Assembly (NCBI RefSeq): GCF_003390885.1
Contig: NZ_QMEL01000001.1
Location: forward strand, 434,001 to 498,000
Reading direction: 5' to 3'
DNA length: 64,000 nt
Source: Pelagibacterium sediminicola
GTDB lineage: Bacteria; Pseudomonadota; Alphaproteobacteria; Rhizobiales; Devosiaceae
The notes under the pieces are model-generated. The model was not told the DNA's origin, did not search any database, and saw nothing but the letters and a program-made list of their open reading frames with translations. Of this stretch, positions 45,350 through 61,840 are shown in pieces. The stretch's first letter is position 1. Each line of letters starts with the position of its first letter. Position numbers and translations under genes: made by a program.

Positions 45350-45688
45350 TCAATCGCCCTCGCCGGGGGCGGGGCTGAAATCCTTGAGTTTTCCGGGGAC
45401 GCCGTTGAGGGCGTCGGCGTCGGGCATGGGGTCTTTCTTGCGGGTGATGTTGGGCCACAGGTTGGCGTGGTCGAGGTTGAGTTCGAGCCAGTGGGGCTCG
45501 ACGGTGGGATCGGTGTCGGGAAAGATGGCCTCGGCCGGGCATTCGGGCACGCACACCCCGCAATCGATACACTCGTCGGGGTGGATCACCAGCATGTTCT
45601 CGCCTTCGTAAAAGCAGTCGACCGGGCACACTTCCACGCAGTCGGTGAATTTGCACTTGATGCAGTTGTCGGTCACCACAAAGGTCAT
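45350..45688 (-). CDS. fdxA: 7Fe ferredoxin FdxA
   Basis: 112 aa. The N-terminus [20 protein letters not shown] with CPVDCFYEG and then [12 protein letters not shown] is the FdxA (FdI) pattern that binds one [3Fe-4S] and one [4Fe-4S] cluster. The extra C-terminal part (about 55-112) is normal for the family. It is a low-potential electron carrier. It is divergent from the DUF2249 gene at 45896; the shared 207-nt region holds a dyad that resembles an NsrR site. Confidence 0.95.
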
Positions 45689-45801: not shown

Positions 45802-45824
45802 AACATATATTGACAATATATCTT
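45802..45824. promoter_or_regulatory. Candidate NsrR operator 1, over a -35 box
   Basis: AACATATATTG-A-CAATATATCTT is an 11-1-11 dyad centred on 45813. The half sites read AACATATATTG and AAGATATATTG. The second agrees with the NsrR half-site AAGATGCATTT (from my memory of the enterobacterial consensus) at 8 of 11 positions. A perfect -35 hexamer TTGACA (45810-45815) lies inside it, as expected for a repressor site. It is 71 nt upstream of the first DUF2249 gene and 113 nt from divergent fdxA. Confidence 0.6.
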
Positions 45825-45895
45825 TTGACGCAGATGCTGGCTTTCGCTCTCTCCGAGCGCTGATCAAACGGTTCGAGAAACCCAAAGGAAGCCCC

Positions 45896-46144
45896 ATGAC
45901 CCAAGCGTCCGCATATGCCGAAACGATCGACGTCCGCACCATCATGCCGCGCGAGCGGCATCCGAAAATCTTTTCGCTGGTCGACGGGCTGGCACCGGGA
46001 ACGTCTTTGCTCCTGATCAACGATCACGATCCCAAGCCGCTCCACTATCAGCTCGAGGCTGAACATCCGGGGAAATATTCCTGGACCTATGTCGAGCAGG
46101 GGCCCGAGGTGTGGCGGGTCGAGATCGGCAAGCCGGCCGCCTGA
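45896..46144 (+). CDS. DUF2249 domain protein (single domain)
   Basis: 82 aa, soluble. IDVRTIMPRERHPKIFSLVDGLAPGTSLLLINDHDPKPLHYQLEAEHPGKYSW is a complete DUF2249 domain; the segment NDHDPKPLHYQL is its best-kept part. The ribosome-binding site AAAGGAAG is 5 nt upstream of the ATG. The family, which shares the TusA/SirA-like fold, recurs next to NO and denitrification genes; its biochemistry is not settled. First gene of the NsrR-linked set, downstream of operator 1. Confidence 0.88.
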   Translation: MTQASAYAETIDVRTIMPRERHPKIFSLVDGLAPGTSLLLINDHDPKPLHYQLEAEHPGKYSWTYVEQGPEVWRVEIGKPAA

Positions 46145-46202
46145 ACACGAACGTTCGTTCGCCGGCCCCCCCTCGGGTGGGTGGCGACTGCCGAGGGAAG
46201 CC

Positions 46203-47552
46203 ATGCACGGTGTCGCGCTTTCGCGCTGGACCATGTCCTACTTCGCTGCCGCACTTGCCGCACTGATGGCGGCGGAGGTGCTCATGGCGGCCGGGTATGG
46301 CTTTCCCTCGGCTCCCCTGCGGGCCCCCGAGACATTGCTGCTCGTCCATCTCGTCGCCATTGGCTGGCTGAGCCTCTTGCTGTGCGGTGCGCTGTTTCAG
46401 TTCGTGCCGGTACTGGTGGCGCGCCCGCTGTTCAGCAACATGCTGCCCCTGCCCACGCTGGTGCTGCTGCTTGCAGGGCTCGTTGCCCTTCTCATGGGAT
46501 TTCTCCAGCTTGGTGGCGCGCTGGGCGCCTGGCCCTGGCTGCTGCCCGTCGCAGCGAGCCTTCTGGCCGGCGGCTTCATGCTGGCGCTTTATAATCTTGG
46601 GCGCACCCTGTGGGCGGCGCGGCCCTTGCCGCTGCCGGCGCGGTTCGTAGCCGTTGCGCTTGTGTTTCTTGCCGCGACGATTGCCCTTGGAGCGCTCTTC
46701 AGTTCGGCCTTTGCCGGACTGGTTACGTCCGACGCGCTGCTCAGGATCGCAGGCGAAGGCGTCGGCCTTCACGCCGTTGCCGGGATCGGGGGCTGGCTGA
46801 CCTTTACCGCCATGGGGGTGAGCTACCGCCTTCTGGCCATGTTCATGCTCGCGCCTGAAACCGATGGCTCCCGCCCACGCGCGGTGTTCGGGCTCGGCAC
46901 GGCGGCGCTTGGCGTTGCCGTATTGGGCGGGGTGATCCTGGTTGTTTTCGATATGCCGTCGGGGCTGGCTTTGATTGCGGGCGGGGCGGCGGGCCTTGCG
47001 GGCATTGCCCTTTATGGTGCCGACATGGCGATGCTTTACCGTAAGCGCAAGCGCCGCGTGATCGAACTCAACAGCCAGATGGCGGCCTGGGCGCTCGCGT
47101 ATTTTTTCGCGTCCATTGCGCTGGCGCTGATCCTCATCGGGCTGGGGGTGTTTTACGATCACATCGGCGCGGTGGTGTTCTTGCTGGCCTTTGGCTGGCT
47201 GTCGGGACTGGGGCTGGCCAAGCTCTACAAGATCGTCGCCTTCATGACCTGGCTCGAATGCTACGGTCCGGTGCTGGGCCGGATGCCGACCCCGCGCGTA
47301 CAGGATCTTGTGGTGGAAGGTCCGGCCCGGAAATGGTTCGTCCTTTATTTCCTGTCGGTGCTGGCGGCGACGGCGGCGCTGCTCGGGCAACACATTTTGG
47401 GCTTCAGGCTGGCCGCCGGCCTTATGGTGGTTGCCACGGCCCTTATCGCCGCCCATCTGGTCCGTACGCGGCGGCTGGCCGGCATCGGGCTTGCCGGGGG
47501 CGTGCGGCGCCCGCACCTTTTCCTGCCCGGCCCCGAACCGGCGCAACCATGA
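46203..47552 (+). CDS. Polytopic membrane protein, heme-copper-oxidase subunit I-like
   Basis: 449 aa, about 12 hydrophobic helices, hardly any loop domains. Histidines in or at helices are His49 (LLLVHLVAIGWLS), His190 (GEGVGLHAVAGIGGWLTF), His320 and His397. LVHLVAIGW and GLHAVAGIGGW are like the heme-ligand helices of cbb3/NOR-type subunit I and NnrS-like proteins, and LYKIVAFMTWLECYG-x-VLGR is shared by relatives that lie next to DUF2249 genes. The classic CuB His cluster is not visible. Possibly a heme protein that handles NO; this is inference. Gene follows the small DUF2249 gene by 58 nt; its TGA overlaps an ATG of the next gene. Confidence 0.65.
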   Translation: MHGVALSRWTMSYFAAALAALMAAEVLMAAGYGFPSAPLRAPETLLLVHLVAIGWLSLLLCGALFQFVPVLVARPLFSNMLPLPTLVLLLAGLVALLMGFLQLGGALGAWPWLLPVAASLLAGGFMLALYNLGRTLWAARPLPLPARFVAVALVFLAATIALGALFSSAFAGLVTSDALLRIAGEGVGLHAVAGIGGWLTFTAMGVSYRLLAMFMLAPETDGSRPRAVFGLGTAALGVAVLGGVILVVFDMPSGLALIAGGAAGLAGIALYGADMAMLYRKRKRRVIELNSQMAAWALAYFFASIALALILIGLGVFYDHIGAVVFLLAFGWLSGLGLAKLYKIVAFMTWLECYGPVLGRMPTPRVQDLVVEGPARKWFVLYFLSVLAATAALLGQHILGFRLAAGLMVVATALIAAHLVRTRRLAGIGLAGGVRRPHLFLPGPEPAQP

Positions 47553-47566
47553 AAGAAGACCATGCC

Positions 47567-48085
47567 ATGACACAAACCTTTGTTGACCTCGATGTCCGGC
47601 CGATCCTGCTCAATGGGGGCGAGCCGTTCTCCAAGATCATGGAAGCCGTCGAGAGGCTCGCACCCGACGAGGGCCTGCGCCTGTACGCAACCTTCAAGCC
47701 GCTGCCCCTGTTCCAGGTGTTGGGCGCCAAAGGGTTCAGCCCCGAGGCCCGCGAGATCGAGGGAGGCGACTGGGAGGTTCTGTTCCACCGCACTGGCGAG
47801 CAGCCCCAGGCGCAAGAAGCCCCGGGCGAGGGTGCCGCCCACGATGATTCAGGCTGGCCCGAGCCCGTCCAGCTCCTGGACAACCGCGATCTCGATCCGC
47901 CCGAACCGATGGTGCGCATCCTTGCCGCGCTCGAAACCATGGCATCCGGCGCGGTGCTTTGCGCGCTGCTTGACCGCGAGCCGGTGTTCCTCTTCCCCGA
48001 GCTTGAAAAGCGGGGCCATGCCTGGCAATGCGGCCCCGATGCGGACGCGGGCACCTATCGGCTTCTGGTGCGCGTTGGGGGGTAG
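47567..48085 (+). CDS. Protein with two DUF2249 domains
   Basis: 172 aa from the ATG at 47567; a start at 47549, overlapping the upstream stop as ATGA, would add MKEDHA. Domain 1 is at about 3-75 (FVDLDVRPILLNGGEPFSKI..LRLYATFKPLPLFQVL), an acidic Gln/Pro/Ala linker follows, and domain 2 is at about 98-170 (LLDNRDLDPPEPMVRILAAL). Domain 2 looks shortened in its first strand. Likely partner of the membrane protein and of the Nfu-MIP18 gene 23 nt downstream. No enzymatic residue is evident. Confidence 0.8.
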   Translation: MTQTFVDLDVRPILLNGGEPFSKIMEAVERLAPDEGLRLYATFKPLPLFQVLGAKGFSPEAREIEGGDWEVLFHRTGEQPQAQEAPGEGAAHDDSGWPEPVQLLDNRDLDPPEPMVRILAALETMASGAVLCALLDREPVFLFPELEKRGHAWQCGPDADAGTYRLLVRVGG

Positions 48086-48108
48086 AACCATAGAAGGACA
48101 AAAGCGCC

Positions 48109-48720
48109 ATGTTCATCCAGACCCAGCCCATGAGCGACCCCGACAGCCTGCGCTTTCTGCCCGGCCAGCCGGTGCTGCCCGGTACGGTCATGAAGATGGC
48201 CGACAGGTCCGAGGCGGTGACATCGCCTCTCGCGACCGCGCTGTTCGACGTCGAGGGCGTCGCCTCGGTCACGCTGGGGCCCGACTATATCGTCGTGGGC
48301 AAGAAGGGGATGGCGTGGGATCACTTGAAGCCCATGCTGCTGGGGCTGATCACCGACCATTTCGTGAGGGGCGCGCCGGTGATCCGCAGTGGCTCGCCGG
48401 CAAGGGAACCGGAGACGGAAGACCCGCTGGCAACGGCGGTCAGACACGCGCTGGAAACCGTGATCGACCCGGAACTGGGCTACAATATCGTCGGGCTGGG
48501 CCTTGTCTATGCGGTTGCCATCGACAAGGACGGCACGGCCGCGATCACCATGACCACGACCACGCCGGGATGTCCGGCCACCAACTATCTGCGCAATGGC
48601 GCCTATCAGGCGGCGGTGGGGGTCGAGGGCATTGACGATGCCGAAGTGGTGCTTACCTACGATCCCCCGTGGGAGCCCGAGATGATGAGCCAGGAAGCGC
48701 GGGCATGGCTGGGGTTTTAG
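48109..48720 (+). CDS. Nfu_N-MIP18 (DUF59) fusion, Fe-S cluster assembly-type protein
   Basis: 203 aa. The N-terminal half (1-92), MFIQTQPMSDPDSLRFLPG..SPLATALFDVEGV..LGPDYIVVGK..WDHLKPMLLGLI, is an Nfu_N domain. The C-terminal half (about 106-195), AVRHALETVIDPELGYNIVGLGLVY..MTTTTPGCPATNYL, is a MIP18/DUF59 domain with its conserved Cys in PGCP. In usual Nfu proteins the second domain is a CxxC NifU_C domain; here it is replaced by the SufT/PaaD-type domain. The build predicts a scaffold or carrier role in Fe-S cluster work. The stop codon TAG uses the first base of the inverted-repeat element that follows. Confidence 0.85.
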   Translation: MFIQTQPMSDPDSLRFLPGQPVLPGTVMKMADRSEAVTSPLATALFDVEGVASVTLGPDYIVVGKKGMAWDHLKPMLLGLITDHFVRGAPVIRSGSPAREPETEDPLATAVRHALETVIDPELGYNIVGLGLVYAVAIDKDGTAAITMTTTTPGCPATNYLRNGAYQAAVGVEGIDDAEVVLTYDPPWEPEMMSQEARAWLGF

Positions 48721-48979
48721 AGTGCCTAACAAAACCAGAGACGGCCATGACGCGCGCAATTTGTCCAGCCCGCAAGGCGCCGCGTGCAGCCGATACCGAG
48801 GTATCGGCAAGCGCGGGAACGCAGCGGATGGACAAATTCCGCGCGCCGCAGGTGGGGTTTGGACGGCCGGCTGCCGTGTCCAGTCGCTTGGCGATACCCC
48901 CGGTATCGCCCGCGCGCCTGTCCTTGCATCCGACTCGTCCAAACCCCATCGTGGCCATCTCTGGTTTTGTTAGGCACTC
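48720..48979. mobile_element. Cloverleaf-shaped MITE-like inverted-repeat element
   Basis: The 260-bp element has terminal inverted repeats GAGTGCCTAACAAAACCAG.. (48720-48747 and 48952-48979; 27 of 28 match) and possible TTA direct repeats at 48717-48719 and 48980-48982. Inside are two long hairpin arms. Left: AATTTGTCCA (48758-48767) pairs with 48829-48838, with apex GCCGATACC-GA-GGTATCGGC (48789-48808). Right: GGGGTTTGGACG (48854-48865) pairs with 48936-48947, with apex GGCGATACC-CCC-GGTATCGCC (48890-48910). It fills most of the 342-nt gap 48721-49062 and has no credible ORF. Confidence 0.8.
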
Positions 48980-49009
48980 TTAGCCGTGATCGGCGATTAC
49001 CCTGCCCGA

Positions 49010-49032
49010 AAGATGCTGTAGGACTATATGTT
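49010..49032. promoter_or_regulatory. Candidate NsrR operator 2, upstream of nsrR
   Basis: AAGATGCTGTA-G-GACTATATGTT has the same 11-1-11 spacing as operator 1. The left half AAGATGCTGTA agrees with the NsrR half-site at 8 of 11; the right half (AACATATAGTC read inwards) agrees with the left half of operator 1 at 9 of 11. It ends 30 nt before the nsrR ATG, fitting autoregulation. Confidence 0.5.
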
Positions 49033-49062
49033 GTACGCACGCGGTCCCGAGGAGATAAGAGC

Positions 49063-49494
49063 ATGCGCCTGACGCAGTTTTCCGATTACGCCATGCGTCT
49101 ATTGATCTATGCGGCGGTCCATGGCGACCGGCTGGTGACGATCGAGGAGGTCGCCGGGGTCTATGCCATATCGCGGGGGCATCTGATGAAGGTCGCCAAC
49201 ACCCTGACGCGGAACGATATCCTGCGGTCGGTGCGGGGCCGGTCGGGCGGGCTTGCCCTTGCCCGGCCGCCCGTCAGCATCGGGCTGGGGGAAGTGTTGC
49301 GCCTCACCGAGCCCGATTTCGCCCTCGTCGAGTGCTTTGGCGAGGACAGCACGTGCCGCATCATGCCCAGTTGCCGCCTGCGCGGCATATTGAGCGGCGC
49401 GCTGGGCGCCTTCATGGCCGAAATCGACCGCTATACGCTTAAGGACCTGGTCCTCGATCCCGCTGCGTTCGGGCTCGACAGGCCGGCGGCCTGA
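49063..49494 (+). CDS. nsrR: Rrf2-family regulator, NsrR type
   Basis: 143 aa from the ATG at 49063, with GGAG 8 nt upstream. MRLTQFSDYAMRLLIYAA is the typical NsrR start; the winged helix follows (TIEEVAGVYAISRGHLMKVANTL, with wing RGRSGGLALARP). Three Cys in ECFGEDSTCRIMPSCRL have spacing C-x6-C-x5-C, close to that of NsrR, which binds an NO-sensitive [4Fe-4S] or [2Fe-2S] cluster. NsrR represses NO-detoxification genes and lets go when NO hits the cluster. Candidate operators are in front of this gene and of the DUF2249 gene. Confidence 0.85.
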   Translation: MRLTQFSDYAMRLLIYAAVHGDRLVTIEEVAGVYAISRGHLMKVANTLTRNDILRSVRGRSGGLALARPPVSIGLGEVLRLTEPDFALVECFGEDSTCRIMPSCRLRGILSGALGAFMAEIDRYTLKDLVLDPAAFGLDRPAA

Positions 49495-49496
49495 CC

Positions 49497-50153
49497 ATGG
49501 GGATCGTGCCGTTCCCGCAAAGCCAGGAGGAGGCTTTCCCGGCGTTTTTCGACGCGGTGCCGGTCGTGCGCATGCGCGATCCGCTCGCAGCGTTCCTTGG
49601 CACGGGCCATGGCGGGGTGATCACCTATCGCTATGCTGATGCGGTGCGCCTTGCCGGGCATTCCTGCCCGACGGTGGCGGGCGCGTGGCTGATGCTGGTC
49701 GAGGGGCTTGGCTGGCTTTATGACAGACAGGTGCCCGAGCGCGGCGCCATTGCGGTGCATATGCGCGGCGGGCGTGCCGAGGGGGCGACCGGCGTCATCG
49801 CCGCGGTTGCAACGCTCCTGACGGGGGCGGCGCCCGAGACGGGGTTTTACGGGATCGGGCCGGGCGGGCGTTTCGGGCGCCGGGGCCTGCTTATTTTCGA
49901 CGCACCCATCGCGGGCACCATCGGGCTCAGGCGCCGGGACACCGGCGCGGGCGTCATCGTCGATATCGACACGGGCGCCGTTCCCCACGATCCGCGCATG
50001 GACGCGCTGATGCCGAAGGCCGTTTCGGGCCGGGCCGACGCGGGGGAGCTCGAACGGTTCGGGACGCTCTGGCAGGACCGCGTGCGCCGGATGCTGATCG
50101 AGCACGCCGACGATCCCAAGCTGATCCATGTTTATGACTGGCCGGAGCCATAG
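49497..50153 (+). CDS. FmdE-like protein of unknown function
   Basis: 218 aa, soluble, no signal peptide. It starts 2 nt after the nsrR stop, so it is surely co-transcribed. YADAVRLAGHSCPTVAGAWLM resembles the GH-x-CP motif that opens FmdE-type domains (found near molybdenum formylmethanofuran dehydrogenase genes and in other metal-related proteins). GGRAEGATGVIAAVATLLTG and FYGIGPGGRFGRRGLLIF are further Gly-rich blocks. Only one Cys (in HSCP) is present, and it could bind a metal together with nearby His. Function unknown; the neighbourhood suggests a role in the NO response. Confidence 0.5.
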   Translation: MGIVPFPQSQEEAFPAFFDAVPVVRMRDPLAAFLGTGHGGVITYRYADAVRLAGHSCPTVAGAWLMLVEGLGWLYDRQVPERGAIAVHMRGGRAEGATGVIAAVATLLTGAAPETGFYGIGPGGRFGRRGLLIFDAPIAGTIGLRRRDTGAGVIVDIDTGAVPHDPRMDALMPKAVSGRADAGELERFGTLWQDRVRRMLIEHADDPKLIHVYDWPEP

Positions 50154-50169
50154 GAGGTCGAGAGGCGAG

Positions 50170-50454
50170 ATGACGAAAAATGGCGAGGACCGTATCGTTT
50201 TTTACGGCAATGGGCTTGGGCAGGCGATAGGGCCGGACGATCCGGAACTGCGCGCCCAGTACGAGGCCCTCATCGGCGCCGATTACGAGCGCTGCAACCC
50301 CGGTGATTCATTTGCGGCCCTCAAGCACCGGGCGCGGTTCTCCAAGGAGGACCGGGGGCTGTTGCGCGACTGGATGCATGTCGCTGAAAAGCTGGCGCGG
50401 CAGGACATACCCACCAGCCACACCCGCCTTCAAGGCGTGATCCGCCGGGCGTAA
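50170..50454 (+). CDS. Hypothetical protein, 94 aa
   Basis: 94 aa from the ATG at 50170, 16 nt after the FmdE-like gene, preceded by GGAGG and GAGAGG. It is soluble and charged: MTKNGEDRIVFYGNGLGQAIG, then EALIGADYERCNPGDSFAALKHRARFSKEDRGLLRDWM and a basic C-terminus. I do not recognise the family. Last gene of the nsrR transcript; the 263 nt after it hold repeats only. Confidence 0.6.
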   Translation: MTKNGEDRIVFYGNGLGQAIGPDDPELRAQYEALIGADYERCNPGDSFAALKHRARFSKEDRGLLRDWMHVAEKLARQDIPTSHTRLQGVIRRA

Positions 50455-59554: not shown

Positions 59555-59965
59555 TTATTTCCCGCCCATCGCCTGCCCGTTGTGCACGATGGGGGCCGGG
59601 GGCGTGCAATGGGCGGTGTCTATCTTGCGGATGGCGGCGGCGCCCGATTGGCCGGCGCGGCCGATGTCCTCGAAGAGCATGGCGATTTCCTCGAACACCG
59701 TGGTGTCGGGTTCGTAAAAGCCGATCTCGTCGATCTCGCTCAAAAGTCCCAGAAGGGCGGCGATCACCTCGCGCTGATGTCGCGCATCGAGGACGGCCTG
59801 CCGCGTCTCGCGGACTTCCTCGAGCGCTGCGAAAGCGCGCAGCGCGGCGTCGAGCCGTTCGCGGCACGGGCAATCGAGATCGAGGCCCGAGATCACGGCG
59901 CGGATGCGGTTGATGGCGCGCGCCTGGCCGTATGAGGACGGTATCTCGTGGAGCTCAGGCCGCAT
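59555..59965 (-). CDS. Conserved-looking hypothetical gene in the ubiTUV operon
   Basis: 136 aa from the ATG at 59965 (MRPELHEIPSSYGQARAINRI). It overlaps the 3' end of ubiV by 11 nt, so it is translated from the same mRNA. The sequence is all-helical in appearance: VISGLDLDCPCRERLDAALRAF, then RQAVLDARHQREVIAALLGLLSEIDEI. Cys in DCPCRE are the notable residues. I do not know this family; because of its place I infer a role with UbiU/UbiV or in anaerobic respiration. Confidence 0.65.
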   Translation of the reverse strand: MRPELHEIPSSYGQARAINRIRAVISGLDLDCPCRERLDAALRAFAALEEVRETRQAVLDARHQREVIAALLGLLSEIDEIGFYEPDTTVFEEIAMLFEDIGRAGQSGAAAIRKIDTAHCTPPAPIVHNGQAMGGK

Positions 59966-60860
59966 CGATCCACTCCGCGCCCACCGCGCCATGGATGAAA
60001 CCGTTGGAGAATGGCACGCCGGGATAAACCTCGCGCAATCTTGCCAGTCCCTCGTCTGGGGCAAGCGTGCCGTCGAGCACGCCCCGGTAGATTTGTGCAA
60101 CCCCGACCATGTCGCAATGCTGCGGGGAAAGGCGGAACCGCCGGACCCCGTGGCGTTCCAGTGCTGCAAGCTCTTCCATAAGGACGTTGCAGGTGTGGGA
60201 GACGGTCTGCACCCCGTTGAGCGCAAGAAACGGCTGGCTGTCGAGCGTTTCCACCGGCAATCCGTCGGGGTCCTCGGCGCACACGAACTGGCAGTTGTCC
60301 TTTGTGTGCCCCTTGGCGCGCGCATGCGCGCAGCGCGCGGAGATGGCGAGCGGCACCTTGCCAAAGGCAGAGACCTCGAAGGAAACTTCGGGCGCGTCCT
60401 CCGCGATCCGGGCGATCGAAGTCATGGGAAGCTCGGGCGGCAGGCAGACGCTCTGGGCGCCGCGTGCCGCATAAAGGCGGGCCGTTGCCGCATTATAGGT
60501 GTTGACCAGTGGGCCGATGGTGTGCGGCCGGCCCTTGAGCTTGTGAAGGGCGGAAAGATCGGACACCTCGAACACGCGGTCTTCCCGCGCCAGCAGCTTG
60601 TCCTGGGCGCGGCGCTCCCTTTCGAGCGTGATCAGCGCCAGCGTTGCCAGATGCACGGTCTTGCCCGCCGCTTCGAGCCTTTCGAGCACCGCGTCGAAAT
60701 GGGGGTCGAAAAAGTGCAGGCGCTTGGAGCAGACGGTTTCGCCAAGGCTCACGACGTCGACCGGGGCTTCGTCGGCGATGCGGAAATAAAAGTCGCGCCA
60801 GGCCTCGCCTTCCCACAGATAGGGAACCGGGCCGAGGACAAGCGTCGAGGATCTGGACAT
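59955..60860 (-). CDS. ubiV: Oxygen-independent ubiquinone hydroxylation protein UbiV (U32 peptidase-like)
   Basis: 301 aa from the ATG at 60860; a GTG at 60872 would overlap ubiU. LGPVPYLWEGEAWRDFYFRIAD is the UbiV start. Cys candidates for the [4Fe-4S] cluster are in GETVCSKR, in SARCAHARAKGHTKDNCQFVC and in later positions. Together with UbiU it hydroxylates ubiquinone precursors without O2, using prephenate as oxygen donor in E. coli. Begins 2 nt after the ubiU stop. Confidence 0.92.
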   Translation of the reverse strand: MSRSSTLVLGPVPYLWEGEAWRDFYFRIADEAPVDVVSLGETVCSKRLHFFDPHFDAVLERLEAAGKTVHLATLALITLERERRAQDKLLAREDRVFEVSDLSALHKLKGRPHTIGPLVNTYNAATARLYAARGAQSVCLPPELPMTSIARIAEDAPEVSFEVSAFGKVPLAISARCAHARAKGHTKDNCQFVCAEDPDGLPVETLDSQPFLALNGVQTVSHTCNVLMEELAALERHGVRRFRLSPQHCDMVGVAQIYRGVLDGTLAPDEGLARLREVYPGVPFSNGFIHGAVGAEWIDAA

Positions 60861-60862
60861 CG

Positions 60863-61840
60863 CTATCGCCACCGTTTTTCGTAAGCGCCCGAGGTCGTCT
60901 TCTGGCCTTCGCTGAGATTACGCAGGCTGGCCACGAGTCCGGCGCGCTCTTGGGGTGGAGCGGCGAGCGCCTTGCGAATGGTCGAGACGACGGCGGCGAC
61001 GTAGGCCTTGCCGCGCTGGCGGCCCTCGATCTTGAGGGCCTTGACGCCCGCTGCGCGCAGCACGTCGATCTGGTCGAGGATGTCGAGGCTGACCGGGTCC
61101 TCAAAGGCATAGCCCTCGGCCTCGGCGATATGGAACCGGCCCTTGCAGAGCGTAGGGTATCCGGCGGCTTCTCCGGGCCCGAAGCGGTTGATGGTATAGG
61201 CGCCCAGTTCGGATACCAGCGTGTCGCCGTCATTGCGGTAGCGCACGTGGCTGGCGGGGGAGCAGACCCCGTCCATATTGGGCGATTTGCCGGTGGCATA
61301 GGAGGAAAGCGAGCAGCGGCCTTCGGCCATGACGCACAGCCCGCCGAAAACGAACACCTCGGTTTCGCAGGCGGACTTGCGGGTGAGGGCGGCAACCTCG
61401 TCGAGGGTCAGGACACGTGGCAGCACGACACGCTTGGCCCCGAACCCTTCGGCCAGAAAGGCGATGGCCTCGGGGTTGGAGGCGGCGGCCTGCACCGAGA
61501 CGTGCAGGCGCTGGGCGGGGTGTTTTTCAGCCGTATAGGCCATGAGCCCGGTATCGGCGAGGATGACCGCATCGGCGCCCAGCGCCACCGCGTCATCGAC
61601 CGCGTCGTACCAGATCCTTTCATCGCCCGCGCGCATGAAGGTGTTGATGGCGATGAACGAGCGGACGCCGCGCGCCCGTCCCAGCTCGATGGCCTGCGCC
61701 ATTTCCTTGCGCGAAAAATTGAGGCCCGGAAAATTGCGGGCGTTGGTCTCGTCGGCAAAGCCGCAATAGATGGCATCGGCGCCCGCTTCGAGGGCTTCGC
61801 GGTAGGCGGCGGGGGTGCCGGCGGGGCATATCAGTTCCAT
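60863..61840 (-). CDS. ubiU: Oxygen-independent ubiquinone hydroxylation protein UbiU (U32 peptidase-like)
   Basis: 325 aa from the ATG at 61840, which overlaps the ubiT stop as TGATG. MELICPAGTPAAYREALEAGADAIYCGF is the family start. FVFGGLCVMAEGRCSLSSYATG with VCSPASHVRY carries the Cys that would hold the [4Fe-4S] cluster. Forms a heterodimer with UbiV. UbiU/V need no O2, so the gene set marks growth at low oxygen. Confidence 0.93.
   Translation of the reverse strand: MELICPAGTPAAYREALEAGADAIYCGFADETNARNFPGLNFSRKEMAQAIELGRARGVRSFIAINTFMRAGDERIWYDAVDDAVALGADAVILADTGLMAYTAEKHPAQRLHVSVQAAASNPEAIAFLAEGFGAKRVVLPRVLTLDEVAALTRKSACETEVFVFGGLCVMAEGRCSLSSYATGKSPNMDGVCSPASHVRYRNDGDTLVSELGAYTINRFGPGEAAGYPTLCKGRFHIAEAEGYAFEDPVSLDILDQIDVLRAAGVKALKIEGRQRGKAYVAAVVSTIRKALAAPPQERAGLVASLRNLSEGQKTTSGAYEKRWR

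Follow-up and report, generated by a model that had tools for sequence, protein, structure and literature searches.

DUF2249, which we take to be the family listed as COG4309, is still a 'domain of unknown function', though it was flagged beside nitric oxide (NO) genes in 2005. The available passages of that study assign COG4309 to the predicted NsrR regulon in three betaproteobacteria, place it beside the NnrR-run nor genes of three rhizobia, suggest that it matters for the function of NO reductase (NOR) and credit only one of the alphaproteobacteria of 2005 with NsrR (PMC1274295). In denitrifying Haloferax mediterranei, four DUF2249 genes are induced, one of them an iron–sulfur (Fe–S) carrier fusion, and the accessible part of this paper cites Pei et al. 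2014 for an association of DUF2249 with heme–copper oxidases (HCOs) (PMC11218638). The Thermus DUF2249 protein DrpA is tied to nitrate respiration and proposed as a nitrate sensor, and T. thermophilus without both DrpA and DrpB yields NarG of little activity (PMC6282519, available text). Here we compare with these systems a gene cluster, P1 to P7, in a window of 64,000 nucleotides from Pelagibacterium sediminicola (Devosiaceae; RefSeq assembly GCF_003390885.1, contig NZ_QMEL01000001.1, positions 434,001 to 498,000). An earlier note on this stretch had read the seven genes as one NsrR-linked set that could be a way of coping with NO. The cluster is a conserved core, P1–P4, which encodes a single DUF2249 protein, an oxidase-fold membrane protein, a double DUF2249 protein and a MIP18 protein, followed by a loose tail; that it is real and linked to NO we consider very likely. 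Judged from sequence, the explanation that we tentatively place first is that P1–P4 would form an NO-inducible operon for protection and repair, an accessory of denitrification and not itself an NOR.

All seven genes lie on the plus strand, as the earlier note had it, and span 45896-50454 (Table 1), but 342 bp with a stem-forming element part P4 from P5, so the seven do not form one tight block. A first search for relatives found P2 in five of 61 genomes, its own included, and P1–P4 stand together in the other four. The larger comparison covers 85 loci: the best 80 of 473 P2 relatives from the scan of a genome collection, the loci L009–L012 and the window. Because the best 80 were chosen, near kin are over-represented, and L009 and L094 cover one and the same stretch of genome, which is counted twice. 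Locus genes were called by a custom codon-model script, which missed P2 in five loci (hence 80 called loci), and were labelled by their best BLAST match to a few reference genes, 'NnrR' standing for an NnrR-like CRP/FNR protein. P2, P3 and P4 are adjacent in 71 of the 80 called loci, with P1 directly ahead in 47. P4 is present in 75 of the 85 loci, in 61 as a short MIP18 protein and in 14 as an Nfu_N–MIP18 fusion; L075 has a short MIP18 plus a separate Nfu_N–NifU protein, and the contig of L078 ends within an Nfu_N-like part. The tail genes are found less regularly (nsrR-like in 31 of the 85, P7 in 11 and P6 in three), and the set of seven is not conserved together.

The predicted operator ahead of P1 has the shape ATRYAT-TGACA-ATRYAT, with a TTGACA hexamer inside. 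It shares the geometry of the NsrR motif gATGyAT-(N5)-ATrCATc given in the available part of PMC1274295 and differs from it at two symmetric positions of the 17-mer, with A for G at 3 and T for C at 15. At up to three mismatches it is the single site in the whole window, where 0 are expected; a sigma-70 scan at the operator gives no promoter-like match. With the pattern derived from this window and the same tolerance, 41 of the 80 loci have a site in the 900 bp ahead of P2, as against 12 matches in the remaining 1.43 Mb; three loci have less than 600 bp of upstream sequence. Among shuffled upstream regions, 0.5% reach 12 of the 16 operator positions. Loci with the operator more often carry nsrR-like genes (20 of 41 versus nine of 39 without it, p 0.02) and less often NnrR-like genes (six of 41 versus 21 of 39, p 0.0003), and a perfect TTGCG-N4-CGCAA box occurs in five loci, none of which has the operator. 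This split suggests that control of the module may fall to one NO regulator in some loci and to a second one in others. In the window, NnrR boxes at up to one mismatch number three versus 5 expected, none of them near the module.

P5 is a regulator of the Rrf2 family. The cluster ligands of NsrR are three cysteines and Asp8; in P5 and its relatives C91, C98 and C104 are invariant in 18 of 18 rows picked from 28 listed relatives, and D8 is found in the 16 rows that extend as far as position 8. NsrR heads the nine NCBIfam models listed for P5 with 118.8 bits (cut-off 182), RirA scores 115.1 (cut-off 193) and both fall short; since the equivalog cut-off is missed, we name P5 NsrR-like only. The three-cysteine signature pointed out in the earlier note is therefore borne out, and its assignment as nsrR keeps the family, the cysteines, D8 and the matching operator but loses the exact name. 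Expression of the module is probably switched on by NO, as regulator type and operator suggest. A regulator gene within the cluster, together with the proposal of DrpA as a nitrate sensor (available text of PMC6282519), would also suit a signalling role like that proposed for DrpA and DrpB, with P2 and the DUF2249 proteins detecting NO or another nitrogen oxide and adjusting expression. We regard this as quite unlikely, since NO would already be sensed by the NsrR-like protein, a pure signalling path leaves MIP18/Nfu without a role and P5-like genes occur in 31 of 85 loci only.

The neighbours of the module point in the same direction as the operator. In part of the loci these are NnrR-like, NnrS, nar, nir, nos and cco genes; nar, nirK, nor or nos genes are present in 27 of the 80 loci, and in 62 when accessory and regulator genes are added, as counted in the fetched stretches with some genes named by eye. 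The NO link claimed earlier thus holds. A sample of 397 genomes from the order contains 20 with P2 and 85 with NirK over its cut-off. NirK accompanies P2 in 16 of these 20 genomes and occurs in 69 of the 377 without P2 (Fisher p 1.3e-8, own genome counted and kinship uncorrected), and both of two further P2 genomes outside this sample have NirK. The genome of the window (3.24 Mb, 46 contigs, completeness rated 100%) contains two NirK (502 and 345 bits, over cut-off), pseudoazurin, NnrU and three NnrS, as well as genes that read by eye as NirV and NnrR, with domains from Pfam. The only DUF2249 domains found in this genome are the three of the module. Four COX1 proteins were found, CcoN and CtaD (both by NCBIfam), one that reads as a fused subunit I/III and one unclassified; the NOR profile matches none of them. 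A genome-wide search for globin (Hmp) and Hcp found none. The claim that no Hmp, NorB or Hcp is encoded extends in these searches from the window to the genome, where a source of NO is present in the form of NirK and NOR is not found.

NOR was sought with a three-sequence profile; other NOR types, NirS, cytochrome c-prime and flavodiiron NO reductase lie outside this search. Among genomes with P2 it was detected in nine of 22, and among the tested genomes with NirK and no P2 in 25 of 58; counting NirK genomes only, the values are nine of 18 with the module and 25 of 58 without (p 0.79). In the Devosiaceae, none was found in six tested genomes with the module or in four tested NirK genomes without it. 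The module as a stand-in for NOR is not supported, the frequency of NOR being alike with and without it, and the earlier idea of a separate way of coping, put forward because no known NO enzyme is encoded, is not supported to the extent that the module does not mark NOR-less genomes. These distributions also bear on assembly or maturation, in which P1–P4 would help to build or insert the metal centres of denitrification or cbb3 enzymes (NOR, NosZ, NirK, CcoN). MIP18/Nfu would then carry the clusters, and P2 would serve as a scaffold in the membrane or handle heme. No partner enzyme is constant, NOR not being found in 13 of 22 and NirK not reaching its cut-off in four of 20 genomes with the module, and most NirK carriers lack the module. 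Assembly is favoured nevertheless by the cco, nos, nar and nir genes that lie near the module at some loci, by the suggested importance of COG4309 for NOR function (available passages of PMC1274295) and by the barely active NarG of T. thermophilus without DrpA and DrpB (PMC6282519, likewise in part). An NsrR-type operator, however, fits a stress response better than routine assembly, and we hold assembly to be somewhat unlikely.

The start of P2 at 46203 was set by alignment with relatives; an ATG at 46089 would add 38 residues that have no counterpart in four relatives. An AlphaFold model built with 48 sequences [predicted local distance difference test (pLDDT) 94.0, predicted template-modelling (pTM) score 0.92] shows 12 long helices, as expected from the earlier description of an about-12-helix subunit I-like protein. 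The best Foldseek matches are the cbb3 subunit CcoN and NorB (E 1.4e-5, TM score 0.64 to 3mk7), and VIA aligns the model with CcoN (3mk7_A) over 393 residues (Z 32.7, 3.0 Å) and with NorB (4xyd_A) over 391 residues (Z 32.0, 3.8 Å). Pfam has no match for P2; COX1 is touched by seven of 48 relatives at a non-significant level (best E 0.025). A sequence comparison with the PDB matched two designed proteins (SAKe), taken as chance, and a viral fold library gave no match at E 0.001. A GWL motif is repeated three times (VHLVAIGWL, LHAVAGIGGWL and FLLAFGWL), with a histidine preceding the first two copies and not the third, and the loop between helices 8 and 9 is conserved and basic (LYRxRKRRxIELN).

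The predicted fold would allow P2 to be an active terminal oxidase or NOR, and the histidines speak against it. The catalytic subunits of HCOs and NORs have six conserved histidines for a low-spin heme, a high-spin heme and copper, the last two sited at helices 7 and 10. P2 shares the predicted 12-helix fold with these subunits and has two invariant histidines in place of the six. These are H49 and H190, located close to where helices 2 and 6 respectively begin, numbered as in the earlier note and unchanged in 77 of 77 aligned sequences. No other histidine is invariant in this alignment, model helices 7 and 10 included. With only two, P2 can hold at most one heme and no copper site; we dismiss it as an active oxidase or NOR, a role that is hardly credible. 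From the helix ends in the model and the two histidines we infer that P2 may bind one heme between helices 2 and 6. This position, between the first two four-helix units, is empty in oxidases.

The small proteins of the core are assigned by their domains. Both P1 and P3 reach the gathering score of DUF2249 (PF10006), and H22, D43, H44, P46, W63 and W73 of P1 are kept in five of five aligned sequences. The second half of P3 also matches TusA narrowly (30.6 bits, cut-off 28.6). P4 reaches the gathering score of MIP18/FeS_assembly_P (PF01883) and stays below the cut-offs of the NCBIfam models for SufT and related proteins. In the tail, P6 was named FmdE-like earlier, and this stands as a weak match only, short of the gathering score of PF02663; its two relatives (59% and 50%) lie inside the module loci L075 and L065. 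A structure model of P6 (pLDDT 42) was not used. P7, the 94-residue unknown of the earlier note, has no match in Pfam, NCBIfam or PHROG.

In the protection and repair reading, NirK would make NO in the periplasm, NO would disable the repressor and the operon would be derepressed. Close to the periplasmic face, between the first and second four-helix units of P2, a single b-type heme may be bound that could encounter NO or transfer electrons. On the cytosolic side, the DUF2249 proteins might contact the basic loop of P2 and, together with the MIP18/Nfu carrier, maintain or restore Fe–S enzymes, perhaps also heme enzymes, damaged by NO. Several observations weigh against this reading. The operator is not found in 39 of the 80 loci, P5 stays below the NsrR cut-off and 18 of the 80 loci, several of them short, have none of the denitrification or regulator genes sought. 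P2 is present in just 20 of 397 genomes, so most NirK carriers are without the module; four of the 20 have no NirK over cut-off, NirS not having been searched, and genomes without NOR are not enriched among those with the module. Profile alignment by hhalign of P2 with CcoN (5.2%), NnrS (2.8%) and NOR (0.3%) is weak throughout, so the kinship of P2 rests on its predicted fold. Finally, the heme would be placed towards the periplasm and no export signal was seen by eye, no prediction tool being used, in P1, P3 and P4, which makes direct hand-over doubtful. We slightly prefer protection and repair to assembly because the operator belongs with NO stress and the module lacks a constant partner enzyme.

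Table 1. Positions in the window of the module and of neighbouring features.
Feature	Position	Strand	Description
NsrR-type operator (predicted)	45805-45821		6-5-6 dyad ATATATTGACAATATAT; ends 74 nt before P1
P1	45896-46144	+	single DUF2249, 82 residues; PF10006 104.5 bits (cut-off 29.5)
P2	46203-47552	+	12-transmembrane-helix protein of predicted HCO fold, 449 residues; invariant H49 and H190; no Pfam family
P3	47567-48085	+	double DUF2249, 172 residues; PF10006 120.2 bits in two stretches
P4	48109-48720	+	Nfu_N–MIP18 fusion, 203 residues; PF08712 70.4 bits, PF01883 65.3 bits (cut-off 23.5)
P5	49063-49494	+	NsrR-like Rrf2 regulator; D8, C91/C98/C104; PF02082 106 bits
P6	49497-50153	+	remote FmdE-like protein, GHSCPT motif; 17.4 bits (cut-off 22.9)
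P7	50170-50454	+	94-residue protein; conserved FSxEDxGLxRDW-like motif; ten relatives among module loci
Stem-forming element	48719-48980		262 bp, 32-nt terminal inverted repeats; between P4 and P5
Ferredoxin-like gene	45350-45688	-	divergent from module; possible extended member
UbiV/UbiU-like and NnrS region	59955-61840 and C25:498619-499689 (just beyond right end)		by Pfam and by eye

Further genes accompany the core in part of the 85 loci. A fifth gene of about 78 residues (for example L041, 6680-6916) occurs in 41 of them, with ACRlAG.A and LHR motifs and a conserved cysteine and histidine; the one member scanned, that of L041, has no Pfam match. A profile search finds nothing of it in the window, where the 262-bp element sits at that place. 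The inverted ends of this element are 94% alike and enclose nested stems, and in single-stranded form its folding surpasses that of shuffled sequences by far (z -13.5); no further copies were found in the fetched stretches, save in loci covering the same place. The family of the divergent ferredoxin-like gene is present in 13 loci, in ten of them within 3 kb of P2, the ferredoxin domain being shown for the L061 relative only; in Rhodanobacter-type loci this gene lies downstream of the module on the same strand. A DUF1858-like protein of about 80 residues occurs in seven loci (L051, L057, L059, L067, L069, L084 and L088), and that of L069 matches DUF1858 with 30.9 bits at a cut-off of 32.2. Downstream of the window module, at a distance of 9-14 kb, are an NnrS gene and genes that resemble UbiV and UbiU by eye (U32 peptidase by Pfam; anaerobic ubiquinone synthesis).

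Module loci carry alpha-, beta- and gammaproteobacterial titles, and the module is present in the cultured genera Nitratireductor, Mesorhizobium, Afipia, Bradyrhizobium and Devosia. In a P2 tree of 78 rows, the window groups with Nitratireductor, Bauldia and Hyphomicrobiaceae in a clade of eight rows (100/100), apart from the Devosiaceae rows, a congener among them, some of which are long-branched. This placement and the patchy spread speak for horizontal transfer. In the congener locus (L010 10900-12053, genome G009), P3 is split by two genes that by eye resemble an IS3-type transposase pair. The fullest version of our reading is a horizontally spread NO-tolerance system in which P2, a stripped oxidase fold with one heme between helices 2 and 6, joins the DUF2249 and MIP18/Nfu proteins in reversing the damage done by NO and so helps NirK bacteria, also those without NOR, to survive their own NO; taken whole, it is unlikely. 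NOR was not found in 33 of 58 NirK genomes without the module and in nine of 18 with it. How such bacteria bear their own NO bears on the release of NO and N2O, and the module is a candidate part of the answer.

Neither the operon as a whole nor its operator or the Nfu–MIP18 form was met in the open-licence literature searched, which also yielded no paper joining NsrR, a metal–sulfur cluster and denitrification. Within the combination that the earlier note had not seen described, the Nfu–MIP18 fusion is recurrent (14 of 75), and the FmdE-like and 94-residue genes are occasional companions. In Sphingopyxis granuli TFA, the three-gene operon SGRAN_3394-3396, divergent from nsrR and labelled as protein transport, is the most NO-induced, by 142- to 229-fold with DETA-NO (PMC6472365, available sections). 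Sphingobium locus L099 has an nsrR-like gene divergent from P2–P3–P4 and resembles the TFA arrangement, of which it may be a counterpart; in the family of Sphingobium and Sphingopyxis, P2 is found in two of 397 genomes, both selected beforehand.

P2 can be compared with several known membrane proteins. NnrS (PF05940) is a membrane protein of NO regulons and P2 does not match this family, although its helix 2 (H49, GWL, VP) aligns weakly (2.8%) with the HxHE..GY..IP stretch of NnrS; the three NnrS of the genome are separate from P2. With CcoN and NorB, P2 shares the predicted fold and not the set of six histidines. The three-unit type of HCO-homology (HCOH) proteins of Pei et al. 2014 reportedly has 12 transmembrane helices in three four-helix units, two conserved histidines for one heme and a tie to denitrification; P2, which has no Pfam family, shares the fold, as predicted, and the two histidines with this type. 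Thermus DrpB (273 residues, cytoplasmic and membrane-binding) is not P2-like by description, and a MIP18 partner is not mentioned in the available text (PMC6282519). Compared with the COG4309 genes of the NsrR and NnrR regulons, which in the accessible passages of PMC1274295 are often co-transcribed with norB or nor, the module has the same domain family, presuming COG4309 is DUF2249, and the same kinds of regulator, but here it belongs to a P1–P4 operon that includes P2 and MIP18 and is present as well where NOR is not found. That DUF2249 stands near NO genes, as the earlier note stated, was already on record. The known ingredients are DUF2249 in the NsrR regulon (2005) and the HCO-homology proteins reported in 2014. 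DUF2249 now has its place in a delimited operon, beside a candidate heme protein of oxidase fold, an Fe–S carrier and a candidate operator, and this operator before P1, kept in 41 of 80 loci, is what is new relative to the known ingredients.

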